Shown: positions 2,819-25,070 of the stretch, one piece after another
Layout: each line of letters begins with the position of its first letter
Position numbering within the stretch: position 1 is the stretch's first letter
IMG/VR virus record: IMGVR_UViG_3300037635_002403
Span: 1 to 26,059 of that record
Length of the DNA stretch: 26,059 bases
Direction: 5' to 3' (one strand)
From: a virus
Made by a program: the position numbers and the translations under genes
The notes under the pieces: model-generated
The model's input: the letters and a program-made list of their open reading frames with translations, nothing else
Database searches by the model: none
Told to the model about the DNA's origin: nothing

Positions 2819-4216
2819 ATGATTAAACAAACCGCTTCATTCTCGAAGTACGGCAAGAACTTCCAAGAAGATCTTTGCCATCTGATCCTGAACGATAGGC
2901 CGTTCGCAGACAGAATCTTTGAAGTTCTTGATGAGAACTTTCTAGAACTTAAGTACCTACGTGTATTTGTGAATCTTATTCGCAACTACCGTGAGAAGTA
3001 CAAGATTCATCCAAACTACAAGGTGATGGTTAGCATCATCAAGTCAGGCTTGGGCGATGCTAACGACGCTACAAAGAAGCAGGTTATTGATTATACTGCT
3101 CGCATTATGGCGACATCAGACATTGAAAACTCTGAGTTCATCAAAGATACTTCTCTTGACTTTTGTCGCAAGCAGAAGCTTAAGGAAGTAATGATCAAGT
3201 CGGCTAGACTCATCAATGAATCTTCTTTTGATGAAATCACAACTTTGATCTCTGATGCTATCAAGCTCGGCGCTTCAAACGATTTTGGGTATGATTACCT
3301 TGCAGACTTTGAGAAGCGCTACGAACTCAAGACTCGTGATCCAGTCACTACAAACTGGTCTGAGATTGACCGCATCACAGGCGGCGGCCTTGGTTCTAGT
3401 GAGCTTGGCGTTGTAGTCGCGCCTACAGGCGCTGGCAAGTCTATGGTCCTCGCTCATCTCGGAGCTACGGCAGTTAAGGCCGGCAAGACAGTTGTCCATT
3501 ACACTCTGGAGCTAGCAGATACTGTTGTCGCTCAGAGATATGACAGTTGCATTAGCGGCGTCAATCTTAGCGATTTGTTCCAGTACAAGGACCTAATTAA
3601 GGAGACTGTCGAGGGAATCGATGGGACTCTTATCGTTAAGGAGTACCCGACAAAGACTGCATCTGTAGAGACGCTGCGTAACCATATGGAACGTTTGATT
3701 GCACGCGATGTAAAACCTGATATGGTTATTGTCGACTATGGCGATCTTTTGAAGCCAGTTAACAAAAATAGAGAAAAAAGAGTGGAGTTGGAGTCTATTT
3801 ATGAAGGTCTGCGCTCACTCGCACAGCAATTTAAGTGTCCAGTTTGGACCGCATCACAGACAAATAGGTCAGGGCTAAATGCAGAAGTTATTACAATGGA
3901 ATCAATCTCGGAGGCTTTCTCCAAGTGTTTCGTTGCAGACTTCATTTTTACCGTATCACGAACTATCGAAGATAAGCAAAGTGACGCTGGTAGAATTTTT
4001 GTAGCAAAGAATAGATTTGGTCCTGACGGTCTGGTGTTCCCGATAGAAATGAGAACTGCTAATGTCTTTATCAACGTGAAGACGATGCAGTCAATTAATA
4101 GTAGTGGTCAAGTTATGAGCAATCTAACAGCGACTACACAGTCAGATATTCTCAAAGAGAAGTATAAGCAATTCAGACAGCAGAAGAAAGATAAAATCAC
4201 CAACGGAGAAAAGTAA
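2819..4216 (+). CDS. dnaB: Replicative DNA helicase, DnaB/gp41 family
   Basis: This 465-residue protein should unwind the replication fork as a hexamer on the lagging strand. Residues 1-150 form an N-terminal helical region. A RecA-fold motor follows, introduced by the DnaB-family segment around W-SEIDRITGGGLGSSELGVV. Walker A is APTGAGKS at 201-208. The Walker B-like strand MVIVDYGDLLKPV and the later segments WTASQTNRSG and VAKNRFGPDG match DnaB motifs 2, 3 and 4. Length is close to DnaB (471) and T4 gp41 (475). No separate primase is recognised in this window. The RBS is GAGG before ATG 2819, and the stop overlaps the reductase start as TAATG. Confidence 0.93.
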   Translation: MIKQTASFSKYGKNFQEDLCHLILNDRPFADRIFEVLDENFLELKYLRVFVNLIRNYREKYKIHPNYKVMVSIIKSGLGDANDATKKQVIDYTARIMATSDIENSEFIKDTSLDFCRKQKLKEVMIKSARLINESSFDEITTLISDAIKLGASNDFGYDYLADFEKRYELKTRDPVTTNWSEIDRITGGGLGSSELGVVVAPTGAGKSMVLAHLGATAVKAGKTVVHYTLELADTVVAQRYDSCISGVNLSDLFQYKDLIKETVEGIDGTLIVKEYPTKTASVETLRNHMERLIARDVKPDMVIVDYGDLLKPVNKNREKRVELESIYEGLRSLAQQFKCPVWTASQTNRSGLNAEVITMESISEAFSKCFVADFIFTVSRTIEDKQSDAGRIFVAKNRFGPDGLVFPIEMRTANVFINVKTMQSINSSGQVMSNLTATTQSDILKEKYKQFRQQKKDKITNGEK

Positions 4217-6072
4217 TGGAAATCGCATCAAAGATCCTTTCAGATATTACAGTCCATATGAAGTATGCTCGTTACGATGCCGACAAGGTACGTCGCGAGA
4301 CCTTCTCTGAGATTGTCGACCGCAATAAGGCTATGCACATTAAGAAGCACCCACAACTCGCAGAAGAGATTGAGGCAGCCTATCAATTTGTTCACGCACG
4401 CAAGGTGCTGCCTTCAATGCGTTCAATGCAGTTCGGTGGCAAGCCTATCGAAGTTGCGCCAAACCGTATTTACAATTGCGCCTATATGCCAATTGATGAC
4501 CTACGTTCTTTTTCAGAAGCTATGTTCCTTCTCCTTGGTGGAACCGGCGTCGGCTTCTCTGTTCAACGTCACCACGTTGAGAAGCTTCCAGAGATTTCAA
4601 AGCCACGCACAAATCGCACCCGTCGCTTCCTAGTTGCTGATAGCATCGAGGGCTGGGCTGATGCTGTAAAGGCTCTACTCTACTCATACACCCGTGGCAC
4701 ATCAAAGATCCGTTTTGACTTCTCCGACATTCGTCCAAAGGGTGCTCGTCTCGTTACTTCTGGCGGTAAGGCTCCCGGCCCACAGCCACTCAAGGAGTGC
4801 CTTGTAAAGGTTGAGGGTATCCTTGCTAACAAGCAAGATGGCGACAAGCTAAGCCCACTTGAGGCGCACGATATTATGTGCCACATTGCTGATGCTGTCC
4901 TAGCTGGTGGTATCCGTCGCGCAGCACTAATCTCGCTCTTCTCCGCAGACGACGAGGAAATGATTTCCTGCAAGAGCGGCAACTGGTGGGAGACCAACCC
5001 ACAACGTGGTCGTGCAAACAACTCCGCAACTCTACTCCGTCACCGAATCACTGAGGAGTACTTTGCAGACCTCTGGGAGCGTATCCGTGCTTCTGGTGCA
5101 GGTGAGCCCGGTATTTATCTTTCAAACGACAAGGACTGGGGAACCAACCCTTGCTGCGAGATCGCACTCCGACCTTACCAGTTCTGCAACCTTACAGAGA
5201 TCAACGTAAGTGATGTGGAATCACAGGAAGACTACGAGGCTCGTGTCCGTGCAGCAACCTTTATCGGCACACTGCAGGCTTCATACACCGACTTCCATTA
5301 CCTCCGTCCAGTATGGCAGCGTCACACCGAAAAGGATGCACTTGTAGGCGTTTCTATGACCGGTATTGCTTCAGGTCGCATCCTCGATCTCGATATGGCA
5401 GCAGGCGCTGCTGTAGTCAAGGAAGAGAACGCTCGCGTTGCAGACCTTCTAGGAATTAGACCAGCTGCCCGTACTACCTGCGTCAAGCCTGCAGGAACTA
5501 CTTCACTAACTCTAGGTACCTCTTCCGGTATCCACGCTTGGCACAACGATTACTACATTCGTCGTATCCGCGTTGGCAAGAACGAAGCAATCTACTCTTA
5601 CCTCTCAGAGTACCACCCAGAGTTGGTTGAGGACGAGTACTTCCGACCACACGACACCGCTGTTATCTCAGCTCCGCAGAAGGCACCAGAGGGCGCTATT
5701 CTACGCTCTGAGACCGCTCTTGAGCTCCTAGAGAGAGTTAAGCGCGTCAGTGTTGAGTGGGTCAGAGGCGGCCACAGAAGCGGCCAGAACACACATAATG
5801 TTTCTGCTACAATTAACATTAAGGAACACGAGTGGGATGAGGTTCGCGACTGGATGTGGGCAAACCGCGCACACTACAACGGCCTATCAGTGCTCCCTCA
5901 CGACGGGGGCAGCTACATCCAAGCTCCCTTTACCGACAGCACAAAGGAAGAGTATGAGGAAATGCTCAAGCACCTTACAGAAGTAGACGTCCGTAACATC
6001 ATCGAGACGCAGGACGATACTGATCTTGCAGGCGAGATTGCTTGCGGCCCATCAGGGTGTGATCTAATCTAA
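4216..6072 (+). CDS. nrdJ: Adenosylcobalamin-dependent ribonucleotide reductase, monomeric class II
   Basis: This 618-residue enzyme reduces ribonucleotides to deoxyribonucleotides. Active-site residues line up with the Lactobacillus-type monomeric enzyme. C88 (in YNCAYMP) and C324 are the redox pair. C313 in N311-P-C-C-E315 is the thiyl-radical cysteine, with C324 at the expected +11. A C-terminal C610-x4-C615 pair can relay electrons from a glutaredoxin or thioredoxin. It is shorter than the 739-residue Lactobacillus enzyme. Needing B12 but no oxygen or iron subunit, it would depend on host or environmental cobalamin; no cobalamin riboswitch is visible. A glutaredoxin encoded at 23542 is a plausible reductant. 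An HNH gene follows directly. Confidence 0.94.
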   Translation: MEIASKILSDITVHMKYARYDADKVRRETFSEIVDRNKAMHIKKHPQLAEEIEAAYQFVHARKVLPSMRSMQFGGKPIEVAPNRIYNCAYMPIDDLRSFSEAMFLLLGGTGVGFSVQRHHVEKLPEISKPRTNRTRRFLVADSIEGWADAVKALLYSYTRGTSKIRFDFSDIRPKGARLVTSGGKAPGPQPLKECLVKVEGILANKQDGDKLSPLEAHDIMCHIADAVLAGGIRRAALISLFSADDEEMISCKSGNWWETNPQRGRANNSATLLRHRITEEYFADLWERIRASGAGEPGIYLSNDKDWGTNPCCEIALRPYQFCNLTEINVSDVESQEDYEARVRAATFIGTLQASYTDFHYLRPVWQRHTEKDALVGVSMTGIASGRILDLDMAAGAAVVKEENARVADLLGIRPAARTTCVKPAGTTSLTLGTSSGIHAWHNDYYIRRIRVGKNEAIYSYLSEYHPELVEDEYFRPHDTAVISAPQKAPEGAILRSETALELLERVKRVSVEWVRGGHRSGQNTHNVSATINIKEHEWDEVRDWMWANRAHYNGLSVLPHDGGSYIQAPFTDSTKEEYEEMLKHLTEVDVRNIIETQDDTDLAGEIACGPSGCDLI

Positions 6073-6133: not shown

Positions 6134-6688
6134 ATGCCAAAACTCAAAGATTTAAGTGGTAAGAGATTTCATAATTTGCTGGTACTAGAGCGGGCTAGCG
6201 CAAACAGACAAGGCTCAGCAACTTGGCTGTGCCAGTGTGATTGCGGTAACCAGAAGGTCTACTCTAGTGACCATCTTACAAGAAAGAGAGGTCCTGTTAA
6301 AAGCTGCGGATGCAAGATGACAAAAAGGGGTCCAGATCACCCACAGTGGAATGGTCACGGAGAGATTAGCGGAAGATGGTTTTACCATCACGTAACTCGT
6401 GAAAGATTTCAAGGTGACAGAACTAGGGTTCCGGTCGAGGTAACCATCGAACAGATCTGGGACCTCTTCTTGAAGCAGGAAAGGAAGTGTGCGCTGACTG
6501 GTATGGAGCTGACAATTAGCCCCACAGCCCAATACAACGACGCTTCAATTGACAGAATCGATAGCTCAAAAGGATATGTAATTGACAACATTCAGTGGGT
6601 ACATAAGCACGTTAATATGATGAAGAGAACATATTCACAAGATTATTTTATAGCTATGTGTAAGAAGGTAGCCGAGCACAATGAATAG
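6134..6688 (+). CDS. Free-standing HNH homing endonuclease
   Basis: The protein has 184 residues. The N-terminal part begins KDLSGKRFHNLLVLER and holds a zinc-binding segment, C33-x-C35-x-C37 with C58-x-C60, as in many phage HNH enzymes that pair a DNA-binding zinc module with a nuclease. The C-terminal half has CALTGMEL, then ASIDRIDSSKGYVIDNIQWVHKHVNMMK, the typical D-R-I-D...G-Y...N-x-Q-W-V block of HNH homing enzymes. Such genes nick DNA at a site lacking the insertion and spread by repair. Its position directly after the reductase fits the known habit of phage homing genes to settle beside reductase genes. ATG 6134 is chosen for its GGGG RBS. The leader structure suggests late-only translation. 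Confidence 0.87.
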   Translation: MPKLKDLSGKRFHNLLVLERASANRQGSATWLCQCDCGNQKVYSSDHLTRKRGPVKSCGCKMTKRGPDHPQWNGHGEISGRWFYHHVTRERFQGDRTRVPVEVTIEQIWDLFLKQERKCALTGMELTISPTAQYNDASIDRIDSSKGYVIDNIQWVHKHVNMMKRTYSQDYFIAMCKKVAEHNE

Positions 6689-12785: not shown

Positions 12786-13223
12786 ATGGGAATTGAAGAT
12801 ACAATCGAAGTTGGGCGGATTGTCCAACTAGAAAACGGCCAGAGCAGCATTCGCTTGCGTCGTGATTTTTATGAATTGTTGGCTGGACTTGCCGACAGGT
12901 TTGCTGACGAAGGCGAAGAAGCAGACATCGAGGATGGCACAATCACCGCAGATGTGCTTACACCGTTCTTGCAGAATGCTCTCCGCGAAGTTGGCATCCT
13001 CGGCGGTCTCACAGAGCCGCAAGCTTATGACCTTGTTGGTATGTATGTCGACCTTTGCCTAAACGATGAACGCCTTCACGAAGAGCTCTCAGCGAAGAGA
13101 TTCACAGAAGTGTTGGAAGCAAGCCTTTTCGCTCTTGATTTGGACTTCTCGCTCCCAGAGAACGCAGGGCAGTCAATTCTAGACTCGCTAGCTAGCCAGA
13201 GGTTCTTTCAGCTTCTAGGCTGA
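12786..13223 (+). CDS. Acidic hypothetical protein
   Basis: This 145-residue acidic protein is not recognised. It begins with a short strand-like part (IEVGRIVQLENGQSSIRLRRDFYELLAGLADRF), followed by mostly helical sequence rich in leucine and glutamate. It has its own strong promoter (12734-12762), a GTAGGAGG RBS before ATG 12786, and a GC-rich hairpin directly after the stop, so it looks like a one-gene transcription unit. No cysteine motif, signal peptide or membrane span is present. Confidence 0.8.
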   Translation: MGIEDTIEVGRIVQLENGQSSIRLRRDFYELLAGLADRFADEGEEADIEDGTITADVLTPFLQNALREVGILGGLTEPQAYDLVGMYVDLCLNDERLHEELSAKRFTEVLEASLFALDLDFSLPENAGQSILDSLASQRFFQLLG

Positions 13224-13590: not shown

Positions 13591-14062
13591 CGTTTCGTTT
13601 GATTACGACAATACGCTCATCCGATACGAATATGTAAAGGACGAGGCAGGCAATGTCATCGATGCAGTCTACCGCGAGCCGCACCTAGGCAACATTCGCC
13701 TTATGCAGCAGTTAGCCAACGACGGCTACAGAGTTATCATTGTCACCGCAAGAGAGCAGGGCCTATCTTTTCCGAAGCACGATAAGTCCCCAAAGCCAGA
13801 AGAACTTGTCAAGGCTCTTAGGCTTCCAGTCGATGACATTTACTACACAGCCAACAGCTGCAAGATCGACACGCTTATGGAAAACAATGCCACTCTTCAC
13901 TTTGACGACTGTGAAGTACAATGCTTGGATATGCTTAAGCATAAACAAAAGACCGGCCTAGGCCCGCTTCCTATTTTGGTCGATGCCCCGAGAGGTATTA
14001 ATAACTTCCTGAAGCGCAAATTTAAGAAACTTATTGAGGAACGAAATGAAAGAAGCAGTTGA
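13571..14062 (+). CDS. HAD-superfamily phosphatase, nucleotidase-like
   Basis: The 163-residue protein carries three HAD motifs: FDYDNTL near residue 10 (nucleophile and acid/base aspartates, D-x-D-N-T), VTARE near residue 60 (motif II threonine), and FDDCE near residue 116 (acidic motif IV). Spacing and size fit the small 5'-nucleotidase and polynucleotide-phosphatase type enzymes of phages. The substrate is unknown; with the nucleotide genes around it, a (deoxy)nucleotide monophosphatase is reasonable, as is an end-repair 3' phosphatase. ATG 13574 is an alternative start one codon later. The basic C-terminus (FLKRKFKKLIEERNER) could bind nucleic acid. Confidence 0.82.
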   Translation: MMTTGTSVSFDYDNTLIRYEYVKDEAGNVIDAVYREPHLGNIRLMQQLANDGYRVIIVTAREQGLSFPKHDKSPKPEELVKALRLPVDDIYYTANSCKIDTLMENNATLHFDDCEVQCLDMLKHKQKTGLGPLPILVDAPRGINNFLKRKFKKLIEERNERSS

Positions 14063-15036: not shown

Positions 15037-15684
15037 ATGAAGAACACAGTTGAACTACTCGGAACTTACGGCGACGACCTTACGCACGCTTGCTCAGCTT
15101 GGACATCGACCAGTCGTAATCTTACGCCCAACAAGTTGGCGCGTGTAGACAAGTTGTTGAATATGCTAGCTCGCGAAGGCCATATGACTCCGTTCGAGAA
15201 GAGCACGCTTCACTTCTTGGTATCAACAGATATTGCCAGCCACATTCATTTGCTTAAGCACCGAGTGGGCGTGAGCATCAACGCGGAGTCTGCTCGTTAC
15301 AAAGAGTTTAAGATCGATAAGTATTACGTCCCGCAGGACTGGCCACAGGAAGAGCAAGATAATCTTGAGGCTTTCATTAAGGACGCCTACGACCGCTACC
15401 ACGGCTGTATTGAGCGCCTTGAGGAGCAAGGCTACCCTCGTAAGCGCGCCAAGGAAAGCGCTCGCCTCTACCTTCCTTACGGAATCCAGATCACTTGCGA
15501 CATTATGTTCAACTGGCGTTCCTTCGCTCACTTCCAGAAGCTTCGCAACGACGAGCACGCACAGGTAGAGATCCGCGAGATTGCTGCTGAAATGCTGCGC
15601 TTGGTCGAAGAGCGCGCCAACTTCCCATACACCATTGCTGCTATGCGCAATTGCGGTATGGTGCCTCTGGAGAGCGAAGAATGA
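15037..15684 (+). CDS. thyX: Flavin-dependent thymidylate synthase ThyX
   Basis: This 215-residue enzyme converts dUMP to dTMP with FAD, NADPH and methylene-tetrahydrofolate. The signature RHRxxSxNxxSxRY appears as KHRVGVSINAESARY (residues 74-88), with lysine in place of the first arginine. Downstream, ARLYLPYGIQ, NWRSFAHFQKLRNDEHAQVEIREIA carry the substrate-binding arginines and histidine. Length is normal for ThyX. It would use dUMP from the deaminase and dUTPase in this window. The last residues, LESEE, are shared with three or four small proteins that follow, because the first copy of the junction repeat (15669-15684) forms its 3' end. Confidence 0.96.
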   Translation: MKNTVELLGTYGDDLTHACSAWTSTSRNLTPNKLARVDKLLNMLAREGHMTPFEKSTLHFLVSTDIASHIHLLKHRVGVSINAESARYKEFKIDKYYVPQDWPQEEQDNLEAFIKDAYDRYHGCIERLEEQGYPRKRAKESARLYLPYGIQITCDIMFNWRSFAHFQKLRNDEHAQVEIREIAAEMLRLVEERANFPYTIAAMRNCGMVPLESEE

Positions 15685-15890
15685 AAGTCGGCGATAAGGT
15701 TGTGAAGATCGGGTATGAATTCCCAAGTGGAGTGCCCGAAGGCACTCTTGGGGTTGTAGCAGAAGCTTTCGGTGAGCACCTAAGAGAGGATCCCCTAGAG
15801 TATCGTAAACAAGTCTGCGTAAGCTGGGCAAATGGGGTAGGTGAATGGACTCATCTTGGATATGTTGAACTTCTGGAGAGCGAAGAATGA
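15681..15890 (+). CDS. Small MKVGD-type protein 1 (SH3-like barrel suspected)
   Basis: The 69-residue protein begins MKVGDKVVKIGYEFPSG, has GTLGVVAEAF and VCVSWANGVGEWTHL, and ends LESEE. The pattern (start MKVGD-x-V, a G-V-I/V turn, a W-x-x-G strand pair) recalls small SH3/KOW-like barrels. It is a clear relative of the genes at 16108 and 16574. ATG 15681 is set by the junction repeat; an in-frame start further upstream would fully overlap ThyX without an RBS. Function unknown. Confidence 0.8.
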   Translation: MKVGDKVVKIGYEFPSGVPEGTLGVVAEAFGEHLREDPLEYRKQVCVSWANGVGEWTHLGYVELLESEE

Positions 15891-16111
15891 TTGAGTGGAA
15901 AGAAACTAATGGTGACTTTACTGCTGTGTGTTCTTATGATACACTCACAGAATCTTACACTGTTGAAGTCACACATACAGATGGCAGGCAAGATAGCGCA
16001 ACTTGGGTTCGGATGGGCTATGAGCCCAGATTTGGAATGGATGATCAGGACGCTCAAAGATCAATCCGTGAATCTGAAAGGATTTGTGTTAGAATGGAGA
16101 GCGAAGAATGA
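15887..16111 (+). CDS. Small hypothetical protein
   Basis: The 74-residue protein has strand-like sequence (DFTAVCSYDTLTESYTVEVTHTDG) then a helix ending MESEE. It is not related to the MKVGD neighbours yet is bounded by the same junction repeat on both sides. Another frame from 15891 is also open but has no RBS. A weak internal promoter (GTGACT, 17 bp, TATGAT around 15915-15943) may be present. Function unknown. Confidence 0.7.
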   Translation: MIEWKETNGDFTAVCSYDTLTESYTVEVTHTDGRQDSATWVRMGYEPRFGMDDQDAQRSIRESERICVRMESEE

Positions 16112-16314
16112 AGGTCGGTGATAGGGTTCGTCTTTCGCATTTCCACGGCTCTCTTACAGATCATTACCGTGCTTCACGAGCAGATGTAGGCGTAATCAAA
16201 AGCATTGAGGAAGAACCAGAACCAAATGTCCTAACACGATGTATTGAAGTCTTGTGGGATGACGGCATTAGTTGGCACTTTCGGCATAGGCTTGTTTTGG
16301 AGAGCGAAGAATGA
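16108..16314 (+). CDS. Small MKVGD-type protein 2
   Basis: This 68-residue paralogue of the gene at 15681 begins MKVGDRVRLS, continues with ADVGVIKSIEEE and IEVLWDDGISWHFRHRL, and ends LESEE. The order of elements (opening strand, GVI turn, W-x-x-G pair, terminal strand) is conserved across the three copies. It starts and stops within copies 3 and 4 of the junction repeat. Function unknown. Confidence 0.8.
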   Translation: MKVGDRVRLSHFHGSLTDHYRASRADVGVIKSIEEEPEPNVLTRCIEVLWDDGISWHFRHRLVLESEE

Positions 16315-16577
16315 AAAGATACTTTGCTAAACCCGACACTTGGTTCAAGGAAGGAACCGAAGCATTCTACGAAGAAGAAATGTTTCCAATTGGAACTCTA
16401 TTTGATGAAGACGGCATTTCACGCGGGTCAGCAATCTACCGAGGAACTTATGTTATTGGCCCAAATGAGGGTTACGACACCTATTGGCACAGCAAAGGCT
16501 ATAAAGAAGGCGACGAAGTTGAGATGAGAGAGCACTGCTGTAATAGCGAGTTTTATGTTTTGGAGAGCGAAAAATGA
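16311..16577 (+). CDS. Small hypothetical protein (KRYFAKPDTWF start)
   Basis: The 88-residue protein starts MKRYFAKPDTWFKEGTEAFY, has FDEDGISRGSAIYRGTYVIG and ends LESEK. It is acidic and rich in aromatic residues and glycine, consistent with a small beta-rich fold. I have an impression of seeing KPDTWF starts in other phage proteins but cannot name a family. It is flanked by junction repeats although unrelated to its neighbours. Confidence 0.75.
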   Translation: MKRYFAKPDTWFKEGTEAFYEEEMFPIGTLFDEDGISRGSAIYRGTYVIGPNEGYDTYWHSKGYKEGDEVEMREHCCNSEFYVLESEK

Positions 16578-16777
16578 AAGTCGGTGATCTTGTAAGACCA
16601 AAAAGTAAGTGGGACGAAAACTTCAAAAAGAAAAAACACAGTGTTGGTATTCTTATAGACATTGAAAAAGACTTCTATCGCCACAACGATTATTTTCAAG
16701 ACCGTCTGACTGTTTGGTGGATTCAGACCGATATGATTTCAAAGGAGCCTACTGCCTATGTGGAGGTTATGAAATGA
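16574..16777 (+). CDS. Small MKVGD-type protein 3
   Basis: The 67-residue third member of the MKVGD set begins MKVGDLVRPKSKW, then HSVGILIDIEKD and RLTVWWIQT. It is more lysine-rich than the other two and lacks the LESEE ending, finishing with VEVMK. It starts in the last and slightly changed copy of the junction repeat. The stop overlaps the next ATG as ATGA. Function unknown. Confidence 0.78.
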   Translation: MKVGDLVRPKSKWDENFKKKKHSVGILIDIEKDFYRHNDYFQDRLTVWWIQTDMISKEPTAYVEVMK

Positions 16778-17142
16778 GCAGGGAAGAGCAAATCGCAAAG
16801 GAAATCGCTCAAATGTCTGACGATGAAGTTATCCAAAATGCAAAAAAGTATTTCCCTGAATCTGCTGCAACTGCTGTTATGAAGCGTATGCTCACCAAAT
16901 ACGGACGCTTGGATGAACAAGTTTATTTTCTTGAGATTCTTCGTCTTGAATCTCTTTGTCGCAGAGCGGCAGAGGAGATCAAAATGCTTGACGACATTAT
17001 CATTGATTACGAAGAGGGAAATGCGAGCATTCCAAAGAGAGAGGATGGTTGCTATGGTTATGCTTCTGTAAATCTGCTTTCAAGACTTGACGGACGGATT
17101 GGTGGGTGGTATACTATGGCTGAGCCAAACGAGGAGGGGTGA
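16774..17142 (+). CDS. Hypothetical helical protein
   Basis: This 122-residue, mostly helical protein (SREEQIAKEIAQMSDDEVIQNAKKYF; LRLESLCRRAAEEIKMLDDIIIDY) ends in a glycine/tyrosine-rich tail. ATG 16774 is chosen because GGAGG precedes it and it overlaps the previous stop as ATGA; the frame is open further upstream to 16714. A promoter lies in its last 60 bases. No family is recognised. Confidence 0.75.
   Translation: MSREEQIAKEIAQMSDDEVIQNAKKYFPESAATAVMKRMLTKYGRLDEQVYFLEILRLESLCRRAAEEIKMLDDIIIDYEEGNASIPKREDGCYGYASVNLLSRLDGRIGGWYTMAEPNEEG
17087..17115 (+). promoter_or_regulatory. Sigma70-type promoter within the end of the preceding gene
   Basis: TTGACG (17087-17092), exactly 17 bp, TATACT (17110-17115). 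It would start transcription about 20 bp before the next gene's ATG at 17142. Confidence 0.55.
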
Positions 17143-17378
17143 TGAGCGCCGACAAGACTGAGACAAAGAAGAGATTGTTCCATCTTCATTACGACCCATA
17201 CGAAGTGGATTGGGGCGCTCTTCCACCAGAGGTCTTCGACCAATACACAAATGCCTGTGAAGAGGTTGAGAACCCTGTGATTGTTGAATCCACACCAAAA
17301 AAGAAGCAAAGCCACTTTGAGAAGTTGTATCATATGAATCTTCTCGTGAACGAAAAAAAGGTTGACACAGAGACCTAA
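17142..17378 (+). CDS. Small hypothetical protein
   Basis: The 78-residue charged protein has HLHYDPYEVDWGALPPEVFDQYTNACEEV in the middle and a lysine-rich C-terminal third. GAGGAGGGG lies just upstream of ATG 17142; an in-frame GTG one codon earlier is less well placed. Its stop overlaps the previous gene as TGATG. The -35 of the following promoter is encoded within its last codons (VDT). No family is recognised. Confidence 0.7.
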   Translation: MSADKTETKKRLFHLHYDPYEVDWGALPPEVFDQYTNACEEVENPVIVESTPKKKQSHFEKLYHMNLLVNEKKVDTET

Positions 17379-17390
17379 ATACGCTATACT
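17362..17390 (+). promoter_or_regulatory. Near-perfect sigma70 promoter driving the structured RNA
   Basis: TTGACA (17362-17367), 17-bp spacer and TATACT (17385-17390): full -35 consensus and five of six for the -10. Start of transcription is expected about seven bases after the -10, at or near A17397, which is also the first base of the closing stem of the RNA described next. Confidence 0.82.
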
Positions 17391-17396
17391 ATGAAC

Positions 17397-17593
17397 ATAG
17401 AGTGAGGCGGTATTACGCAGGGTTCTACTGAGACGATATACGACCCGGTTCAAGGAATAAGAGTCTAACAAAGGAATACTTGAACACCTGTGGGTTTAGC
17501 CCCACCACTCTATTGCATAATGAAGTTACCCCTCTTGTAGCGGGTGGGACTGGAAACAGTCAGTTAGGTGGGTTGGTTGCCTAACACCTTTTT
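17397..17593 (+). ncRNA. Candidate structured RNA (multi-helix junction plus tandem hairpins)
   Basis: This gap holds no supported gene. An 8-bp closing stem, ATAGAGTG (17397-17404) with CACTCTAT (17506-17513), encloses three arms: GGGTT/GACCC (17420-17424 with 17442-17446, one wobble), GTTCAAG/CTTGAAC (17448-17454 with 17479-17485), and GTGGG/CCCAC (17490-17494 with 17501-17505). A weak GCG/CGC arm is also possible. Three hairpins follow almost without gaps: TTACCC/GGGTGG (17526-17547), GACTG-GAAA-CAGTC (17548-17561, a GNRA loop) and GTTAGG/CCTAAC (17563-17585). AGGTG/CACCT followed by five T (17589-17593) is a competing, terminator-like fold. It could be a free small RNA or a regulatory leader for the gene at 17607. 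No known class is recognised. Confidence 0.6.
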
Positions 17594-17606: not shown

Positions 17607-17930
17607 ATGAGCGATGAGTTTGTAGATAAGAAAGGTATTCGTTGGCGTCCTAAAGAAATGCTCGATAACTTGTCGCAGCGTCTCGAAACAGCCAAAGCAT
17701 TTCACAAAGTTGCCGTAAGAGAAAGAGACTATGAAAGAACTCTCTGCGACCGATACAAAAAAGAACTGTACGAACTTCGCTCACTTTACGAAGGTGTTCT
17801 TTCTCGCATAAACAAGCTGGAAGACGACACAAGAGCAGCGATAGAGTTTGCCGACCTCGCAGAAGACGATAGGGGAGCAGAAATGATCTTGGAATTCTGC
17901 GATGACATTACAAAGTTGGTTGGAGAGTGA
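17607..17930 (+). CDS. Coiled-coil hypothetical protein
   Basis: The 107-residue protein starts at ATG 17607 behind GGGAGAG. The middle (NLSQRLETAKAFHKVAVRERDYERTLCDRYKKELYELRSLYEGVLSRINKLEDD) is a probable long coiled coil, followed by an acidic helix. It is the first gene after the structured RNA and may be controlled by it. Function unknown. Confidence 0.75.
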   Translation: MSDEFVDKKGIRWRPKEMLDNLSQRLETAKAFHKVAVRERDYERTLCDRYKKELYELRSLYEGVLSRINKLEDDTRAAIEFADLAEDDRGAEMILEFCDDITKLVGE

Positions 17931-17933
17931 GAA

Positions 17934-18194
17934 ATGGATAGGATCGCAAAAGTAATGTTTCATAAAGGCGACTTTGGAATCTGCCGAGCAGCTATCATAC
18001 AGGCAGAAGAATACTGGAAAGCAGCAATAAACGACGAAGAAATGCGACCCGCAGGTTGGGCAGAAGAAGATTGTACGAATATTGTCAAGAACCTGCAAAT
18101 GGTGAAAGAAAAGATTGACTTGGTTCTCGGAATGGACTATAATGACATTAGACAAGAAACTTGGGATAGTCTTGTAGAGGATGTTAGCAAATGA
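17934..18194 (+). CDS. Small hypothetical protein
   Basis: The 86-residue acidic, helical protein (GICRAAIIQAEEYWKAAINDEEM; NLQMVKEKIDLVLGMDYND) has GGAGAG before ATG 17934, three bases after the previous stop. Its final third contains a good sigma70-type promoter (18115-18143). It overlaps the next gene as ATGA. Not recognised. Confidence 0.75.
   Translation: MDRIAKVMFHKGDFGICRAAIIQAEEYWKAAINDEEMRPAGWAEEDCTNIVKNLQMVKEKIDLVLGMDYNDIRQETWDSLVEDVSK
18115..18143 (+). promoter_or_regulatory. Intragenic sigma70-type promoter
   Basis: TTGACT (18115-18120), exactly 17 bp, TATAAT (18138-18143), about 48 bp before ATG 18191. Five of six -35 bases match and the -10 is perfect. Confidence 0.55.
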
Positions 18195-24014: not shown

Positions 24015-25070
24015 ATGAACTTTTTCAGTAAGGAGCCAGCACTATCATTTGACGATGTGCTCTTGCTCCCACAACATTCAGATATTGTTTCTCGCTCAGA
24101 GGTCTCTATGGCATACGAGCTAGAGAACATTGAGGGCCACATCTTTAGGCTACCAGTGGTCTCTAGCCCTATGGACACAGTTACCGAGTTCGAGACAGCC
24201 AAGCAGATGTTTGAGTCTGGCGGCTTTGGTATCGTTCATCGTTACCTCTCAGAGATAGAGCAGAAGAATATCTCTCTAAAATGTGCAGAGCAGGGCATCA
24301 TTGCAGGCTTTGCAGTGGGAACTGGCTCACAGGATCGTGAGCGTGCAAGGTTCCTTATTGAAGATGGCCTCGCGGAAATCATTTGTGTTGATGTCGCACA
24401 CGGCCATCATATTGCGGCTGCCGAGATGGTATCTTTCCTATCAAAGAACTGGGGCGACCAGATTCATATTATGGCAGGGAATGTAGCAACTCTAGAAGGG
24501 TTTAACTTCTTGGCAGACGCAGGGGCACACTCTGTTCGCGTTGGTATTGGCGGTGGCTCTATCTGCTCCACAAGGATTCAGACAGGCCACGGCTGCCCAA
24601 CATTGCAGAGCGTAATTGATTGTGCAAAGTCAGACCGTGACGCACTTTTGATTGCAGATGGTGGTATCCGTACAGCTGGCGACATTGTAAAGGCTCTAGG
24701 CGCAGGCGCAGACCTAGTAATGCTTGGTTCAATGTTGGCAGGTACCGACTGCAGCCCCGGCGACATTATTGAGCACGATAATGGCGAAAAGTGTATGGAG
24801 TATCGAGGTATGGCTTCACGCCGAGCACAGACAGCTTGGCGCGGCAAAGTTGCTTCCAAAGAGGGAGTTGCAAGCCATATCCCATACAAGGGCGAGCTAG
24901 AAGCGGTCATTGCAGATATTCAGGATAGACTACGTTCTGGGCTATCTTACAGCGGAGCCCGTAGCATTGAGCAGTTCCAGAATACTGCACTATTTATTAT
25001 GCAAACTAGCGCAGGCTGTAGAGAGAGTAATACTCACATTTCCAGCCTTGCAAAGGGTGTACGGGATTAA
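24015..25070 (+). CDS. IMP dehydrogenase / GMP reductase homologue without CBS domains
   Basis: This 351-residue TIM barrel acts on guanine nucleotides. [15 protein letters not shown] and PMDTVTE match the IMPDH start. [18 protein letters not shown] (catalytic C184), [39 protein letters not shown] and [10 protein letters not shown] are family blocks. IMPDH is usually about 490 residues with two CBS domains, absent here; GMP reductase is about 346. The flap after YRGMAS ([13 protein letters not shown]) lacks the IMPDH Arg-Tyr pair and also differs from GMP reductase. So direction (IMP to XMP, or GMP to IMP) is open. It starts one base after the previous stop codon. Confidence 0.88.

Follow-up and report, generated by a model that had tools for sequence, protein, structure and literature searches.

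The question raised by this locus is whether the gap between an open reading frame (ORF) ending at position 17378 and an ATG at 17607 encodes a free small RNA or a leader that controls the gene behind it. The gap lies in the window, by which we mean the whole of the 26,059-bp IMG/VR virus record that was analysed. A sequence-only reading had described there a promoter-linked, multi-helix RNA and had left both alternatives standing. In this study, we find, from the comparison of its copies, that the element is a structured RNA conserved in evolution across related phage records from the environment, and that it is made of two separable domains, A and B, and is not the single unit first seen. 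The features of the window copy are collected in Table 1.

Table 1. Features of the element and its flanks in the window
Feature	Position	Strand	Basis or remark
Sigma-70-type promoter	TTGACA 17362-17367, 17-nt spacer, TATACT 17385-17390	+	11/12 consensus matches
Domain A, tRNA-like cloverleaf	17397-17513	+	Minimum-energy fold, alignments, pair counts, model R2
A closing stem, 8 bp	17397-17404/17506-17513	+	Sequence and minimum-energy fold
A D-like arm, 3 bp	17407-17409/17416-17418	+	Sequence and minimum-energy fold
A anticodon-like arm, 5 bp, 17-nt loop	17420-17424/17442-17446	+	Sequence and minimum-energy fold
A variable arm, 7 bp	17448-17454/17479-17485	+	Sequence and minimum-energy fold
A T-like arm, 5 bp	17490-17494/17501-17505	+	Sequence and minimum-energy fold
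Domain B core, AUGAAGnUAC and three hairpins, UGG linker between hp1 and hp2	17520-17585	+	Alignments
hp1, interrupted in the window by a single U.C mismatch	17530-17534/17540-17544	+	Hand alignment
hp2, GACTG-GAAA-CAGTC, GAAA loop	17548-17552/17557-17561	+	Hand alignment
hp3	17563-17568/17580-17585	+	Hand alignment
hp3 and T-run, terminator-like 3' end	17563-17593	+	T5 at 17589-17593
ORF, 107 aa	17607-17930	+	No Pfam family; not a constant partner of the element

Results

Collection of copies and known RNA classes

With the 107-aa ORF at 17607 as query, 13 loci were collected, and further loci came from scans of viral_contigs with exact DNA patterns. Part of the loci were found through the 17607 protein, which is a sampling bias, and copies were fetched by exact letters, so that the invariance of GGTATTACGC, AUGAAG and UACCC is partly built in. 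In L001 and L007 the element of the window recurs without a single change across 245 nt. Judged by eye, L046, L048 and L050-L052 matched the patterns by chance, and among the 41 later pattern loci (L138-L178) only L140 is real. Model R3 matched none of L138-L178 at E<=0.1, L140 included, which it missed because A interrupts hp1 there. No convincing homologue was returned by blastn against INPHARED, and exact patterns for A and insert-free B gave 0 matches in genome_contigs, a search that diverged copies would escape.

The RNA had been said to belong to no recognised class, and this held against Rfam 15, where neither A nor B was matched (E<=10 for the window stretch, E<=3 to 5 for 13 loci). 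In the literature consulted, mainly the openings of abstracts, no description of the element was recognised. An unannotated region before the tRNA genes of Klebsiella phage RaK2 (177.4 kb; L063, 1150-1290) carries a motif that is similar in part, and a related 3' hairpin sequence occurs there twice; model R3 had no match in RaK2, and the similarity is no more than suggestive. A match in a 735-kb uncultured phage was discarded, for it sits in what appears by eye to be a coding frame.

Promoter and surroundings in the window

The promoter can be read directly from the sequence, and it predicts a transcription start near A17397, as had been expected. The promoter is the joint best of 15 promoter-like sites between 15600 and 20600 on both strands, and the first base of domain A follows its -10 box by 6 nt. 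This register is kept elsewhere: a promoter scoring at least 9 of 12 occupies it in 13/18 A contexts and in 9 of the 18 true B-only contexts, counts from which L048 and L051 are excluded as unrelated pattern matches, while the random background for such a score is 0.99% of 20,000 positions. The loci of thyX type and of L056 type, in which B stands upstream of a gene, have no good promoter score ahead of B.

A second promoter-like site, TTGACG-17-TATACT, is seen at 17087-17115 inside the upstream ORF. Domain A of L015 (reverse strand, ~3190) stands directly behind a site that matches it, so the element there is joined to a different upstream sequence. A strong promoter-like TTGACT-17-TATAAT also occurs at 18115-18143, within the ORF at 17934-18194. 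Small ORFs follow one another at 15651-16777 with similar starts (MKVGD) and ends (LESEE), resembling shuffled cassettes, and the three of them that were compared with Pfam gave no family. The phage also carries an IMP dehydrogenase/GMP reductase at 24015-25070 (PF00478, E 1.9e-90).

Domain A is supported by covariation

The 8-bp closing stem, the 7-bp arm and the two 5-bp arms of the earlier description can all be traced in the sequence, and the minimum-energy fold contains them too. The folding energy of the window copy is unremarkable (z -0.48; 63/200 shuffles at least as stable), and it is the comparison of copies, not folding energy, that sets the element above chance. Over 18 distinct copies of A, pairing is kept in 97.6% of cells, and 8/28 pairs are changed on both sides: two in the closing stem and four in the 17448/17485 arm, where covariation had been proposed as the check, and two in the T-like arm. 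The D-like arm is invariant, and in the anticodon-like arm a single pair shows variation, confined to one of its two sides; this constancy is partly due to the search pattern. Shuffled alignments equalled the share of paired cells, the number of doubly changed cells and the score for covariation in 0/500 cases, the eight double-changed pairs in 2/500 and the number of pair types in 498/500.

The A2 alignment omits L015 and further copies that are nearly identical to one another or cut off, as well as L055, L089 and L140, which are divergent. The A3 alignment, fitted to the structure, joins the 18 close copies with L089, L140 (as L181) and L055, none of which came from an A pattern. With the three divergent copies added, 97.1% of cells remain paired and 17/28 pairs are double-changed, now in all five helices (closing stem 7, D-like arm 1, anticodon-like arm 2, variable arm 4, T-like arm 3); shuffles reached the same measures in 0/500 cases and the pair types in 3/500. 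Because this alignment was fitted to the model and the copies are related, the shuffle counts do not amount to probabilities. A decayed gene as the content of the gap is made unlikely by this covariation.

Domain A resembles a class II tRNA in outline

Domain A shares with class II tRNA (RF00005) the cloverleaf topology, the spacing of the junction and the T-like loop, which reads UNNRA in 17/18 rows, the window copy being one loop base short. True tRNAs are marked by a 7-nt anticodon loop, a GG in the D-loop and a CCA end. In contrast, A has a 17-nt anticodon-like loop (A2 columns 29-45), a 24-nt variable loop and a 6-nt D-like loop without GG (columns 14-19, GUAUUA), and in the window the closing stem is followed by TTGCATAA, that is, by no CCA. 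ARAGORN called no tRNA within the element, which also falls below the RF00005 gathering cut-off.

The covariance model R2 of A was built without any tRNA and run on 45 records chosen for holding the element or the neighbour gene. It found 26 places with at least 70 bits, in 25 of the 45 records, and nine places below 30 bits at E<=0.1. One of the nine is an A-like domain in L055; of the other eight, seven coincide at least in part with a tRNA gene that ARAGORN or Rfam recognised, and the eighth resembles, by eye, an uncalled tRNA ending in CCA. In record G001, the model matches one of seven tRNAs and misses six. The tRNA mimicry suggested by the outline of A may thus be a likeness of shape only.

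Domain B and its 3' end

The three hairpins that had been noticed downstream of the junction, the middle one with a GAAA tetraloop, are likewise present. In a hand alignment of 20 rows, made knowing the hairpins, paired cells number 69/69 in hp2, 123/123 in hp3 and 91/100 in hp1, and the columns with double changes are four, five and two, respectively. Shuffles scored as high in 0 (hp2), 2 (hp3) and 91 (hp1) of 2000 cases, with 9, 8 and 8 distinct helix sequences, so that covariation supports hp1 weakly. The MAFFT alignment of B gave no signal (162/500 shuffles reached its doubly changed pairs and 204/500 its covariation score); it misregisters divergent rows, and the hand alignment was used instead. 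The latter omits most copies with an insert in hp1, L010 (hp2 and hp3 partly deleted), L061 (a chimera), L036 (cut off), L089 and L140. The hp1 insert, of about 42 nt, is seen in many B copies (for instance L002 4578-4700 and L009 6593-6703) and may by eye hold a nested pairing GATT/AATC, AGC/GCT, GGAG/CTCC.

A T-run follows hp3 in 24/35 distinct contexts and is absent in 11/35; terminator-like sites in the region are not above shuffles (2 found against 4.1 expected). The stem of hp3 is kept in all 24 T-run copies, hp3 being itself a search anchor. The competing fold (AGGTG/CACCT before T5) that had been proposed for the terminator-like end did not prove to be conserved, since 10 of these 24 copies have no CACCT. 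If the start of B is read as a leader peptide, AUG AAG UUA CCC CGN UUG UAG, the third positions of AAG and CCC are invariant and L045, L035 and L017 have no stop, features that might argue against coding, although the search patterns partly fixed these letters.

The two domains are combined in several ways

In the window and in most records with A, this domain lies directly 5' of B. It lies instead inside hp1 of B in L089/L137 (fold z -1.25) and in L140 (z -3.71; 1/200 shuffles as stable). In L055 the A-like domain is found inside hp2; it scores 24.9 bits, a level that true tRNAs reach as well, and the fold predicted for it (z -1.43) keeps the closing stem and the D-like and T-like arms and loses the other two. 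Homology of this domain with A is probable, as far as can be told from score and predicted fold. In two records the domains stand several hundred bases apart: in L009, A is at 3978-4096 and B begins at 4726 (promoter scores 9 and 8.5), with an additional A+B copy at 6470, and in L022, A is at 13026-13144 and B begins at 13612 (promoter scores 6.5, which is not good, and 9.5).

Across records B reaches further than A; among the records in which model R2 matched no A are those of L039, L042, L043, L045, L057 and L059. Since A accompanies B wherever it is attached, the whole can be regarded as a composite RNA, yet many B copies occur without A. A strong B match (at least 37 bits) is found in 38/45 records, once in 37 of them and twice in one. 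In record G001 (232,533 bp), which was read from end to end, the only copy lies at 86.6 kb, and 7 tRNAs and a tmRNA are at 24-53 kb.

Records bearing the element also include tmRNA genes at L045 1815-2117, L062 1141-1269 (minus strand) and G001 52650-53026; those of L045 and L062 share the strand of B and precede it at a short distance. An apparent 5' half of a tRNA is seen 11 nt before A or an A remnant in L033 (4051-4220, minus strand) and L061 (2868-2945, plus strand), the latter resembling a chimera of a B start, a tRNA half and an A start.

The genes behind the element vary

The suggestion that the element leads the putative coiled-coil gene at 17607 is not borne out. When the ORF next downstream was compared across 32 contexts, 16 clusters resulted, and in L002 another ORF separates the element from the 17607 homologue. 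The largest cluster (9) includes the window ORF, and it is held together in part by residues that the RNA itself encodes when translated and by mosaic segments. The body of the window ORF is common only to L009 and L011 (78-81% over 67 aa), both found via that protein. B stands before thyX in L047 and L054 (Pfam Thy1) and, by clustering or identical context, in L049 and L053; L060, whose record is cut off before the gene, falls in the thyX group. In L056, B precedes a phage gene without a Pfam match, and the genes of L058 and L062 are in the same cluster. Small ORFs after the element in L009, L022, L043, L044 and others are mosaics in which segments recur in different combinations, with the shared N-terminal or internal segments MTDEIKELKKQVEELKK and QKEINKMVDEVESAAVKAAHKVMEQ.

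Discussion

Between a free small RNA and a leader, the copy number, the promoter of its own, the T-run in most contexts and a convergent ORF behind the element in L089/L137 favour the free RNA. Structure, copy number, promoter, architectures and the varying downstream genes together point to a single-copy noncoding RNA gene rather than to a leader for one gene. We propose, as a reading that we consider evenly poised between right and wrong, that this phage noncoding RNA gene combines a tRNA-like domain A with a core B and probably acts in trans with a tRNA-binding factor. Transcription from the sigma-70-type promoter would start at the first base of the cloverleaf, run through B and mostly stop at the T-run after hp3, giving a product of about 197 nt. 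B would be the core and A a peripheral domain attached 5' of it, within hp1 or, probably, within hp2. A would offer a tRNA-like surface to a tRNA-binding factor of host or phage, as partner or decoy, and B would hold or act on the complex of A with this factor. Read-through beyond the leaky end would feed whichever small gene follows. We infer the transcript ends, the action in trans and mimicry as the working principle. An RBS-like site with a start codon close by in 18/24 T-run copies, the contexts without a T-run, the promoterless B loci and the biased sampling count against a free RNA.

Less probable, though a serious contender, is a leader acting in cis on whatever operon follows, either as an attenuator or as an antiterminator like put or EAR that modifies its own polymerase. 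put and EAR antiterminators promote read-through of terminators in cis, and HK022 put and EAR are likewise structured RNAs near the head of the transcript, with few copies per genome. Such a leader would fit the fact that most window-like copies begin where transcription is expected to start, the position of the RBS-like site and the start codon no more than 36 nt behind the stem, and the presence of B before a gene (thyX, L056 type) with no promoter of its own, as might be seen for an EAR-like element. It is opposed by the mostly single copy per record and by the convergent ORF, and a promoter-like site before the next gene is present in 4/35 contexts, a raw count set against no background control. 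In its features, the element is set apart from put and EAR by the T-run behind many copies and by the ability to precede a convergent ORF. The lack of a T-run in the remaining contexts counts against a leader as well.

A metabolite-sensing riboswitch is improbable. The element is compact and has conserved unpaired bases, some of them fixed by the search patterns, and B precedes thyX at four loci; however, the spread of downstream ORFs over many clusters does not point to one pathway, thyX being confined to one group, and A can be added, moved and lost. Hardly better placed, and if anything slightly less probable, is a mobile recombination cassette of promoter and stem-loop, with RNA structure secondary, like the PeSLs of T4-type phages. 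PeSL cassettes occur in many copies per genome. As described in PMC4503421, they consist of a promoter followed by a stem-loop and are tied to gene shuffling. The element similarly combines promoter and stem-loops beside variable genes, is surrounded by small mosaic genes and lies at sequence joints in L015, L033 and L061, but it is present in one or two strong copies per record and, unlike PeSLs, has an elaborate fold with two covarying domains in nested architectures. A replication origin or primer RNA, to which a single copy with a promoter and a G-rich structured transcript might correspond, is very improbable, given that the cumulative GC skew of G001 rises from end to end with no inflection or coding-strand switch at the element.

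Bacterial Y RNAs such as YrlA are small noncoding RNAs that carry a tRNA-like module and have the Ro (TROVE) protein as partner. The element is similar to YrlA in holding a tRNA-like module inside a small RNA; a TROVE/Ro protein was found in 0/12 records searched, which may be fragments. GOLLD and ROOL are structured noncoding RNAs of phages and prophages, of unknown function and often near tRNA islands, and many GOLLD RNAs exceed 800 nt (PMC12286853). Compared with these RNAs, the element is far smaller, at about 200 nt, and its tRNA-like domain is a movable part of the RNA; the Rfam models of GOLLD and ROOL gave no match on it.

The element adds an RNA that is supported by covariation, has no match in Rfam release 15 and occurs in phage records from the environment that reach 281 kb. 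Attachment of its domain A to B is strongly supported at two positions and less strongly at a third, and in two records A stands apart from B. We entertain, tentatively and as rather unlikely, the more specific reading of a modular RNA whose core takes up a tRNA-mimicking domain at three positions, perhaps also as a separate piece, and so occupies a tRNA-binding host factor. On this modular reading, candidate host targets would lie in translation, in tRNA processing or in an anti-phage anticodon nuclease. The natural series of rearrangements would reveal which contacts between the domains matter, and the element offers a concrete candidate means by which such phages might disturb the tRNA-handling machinery.
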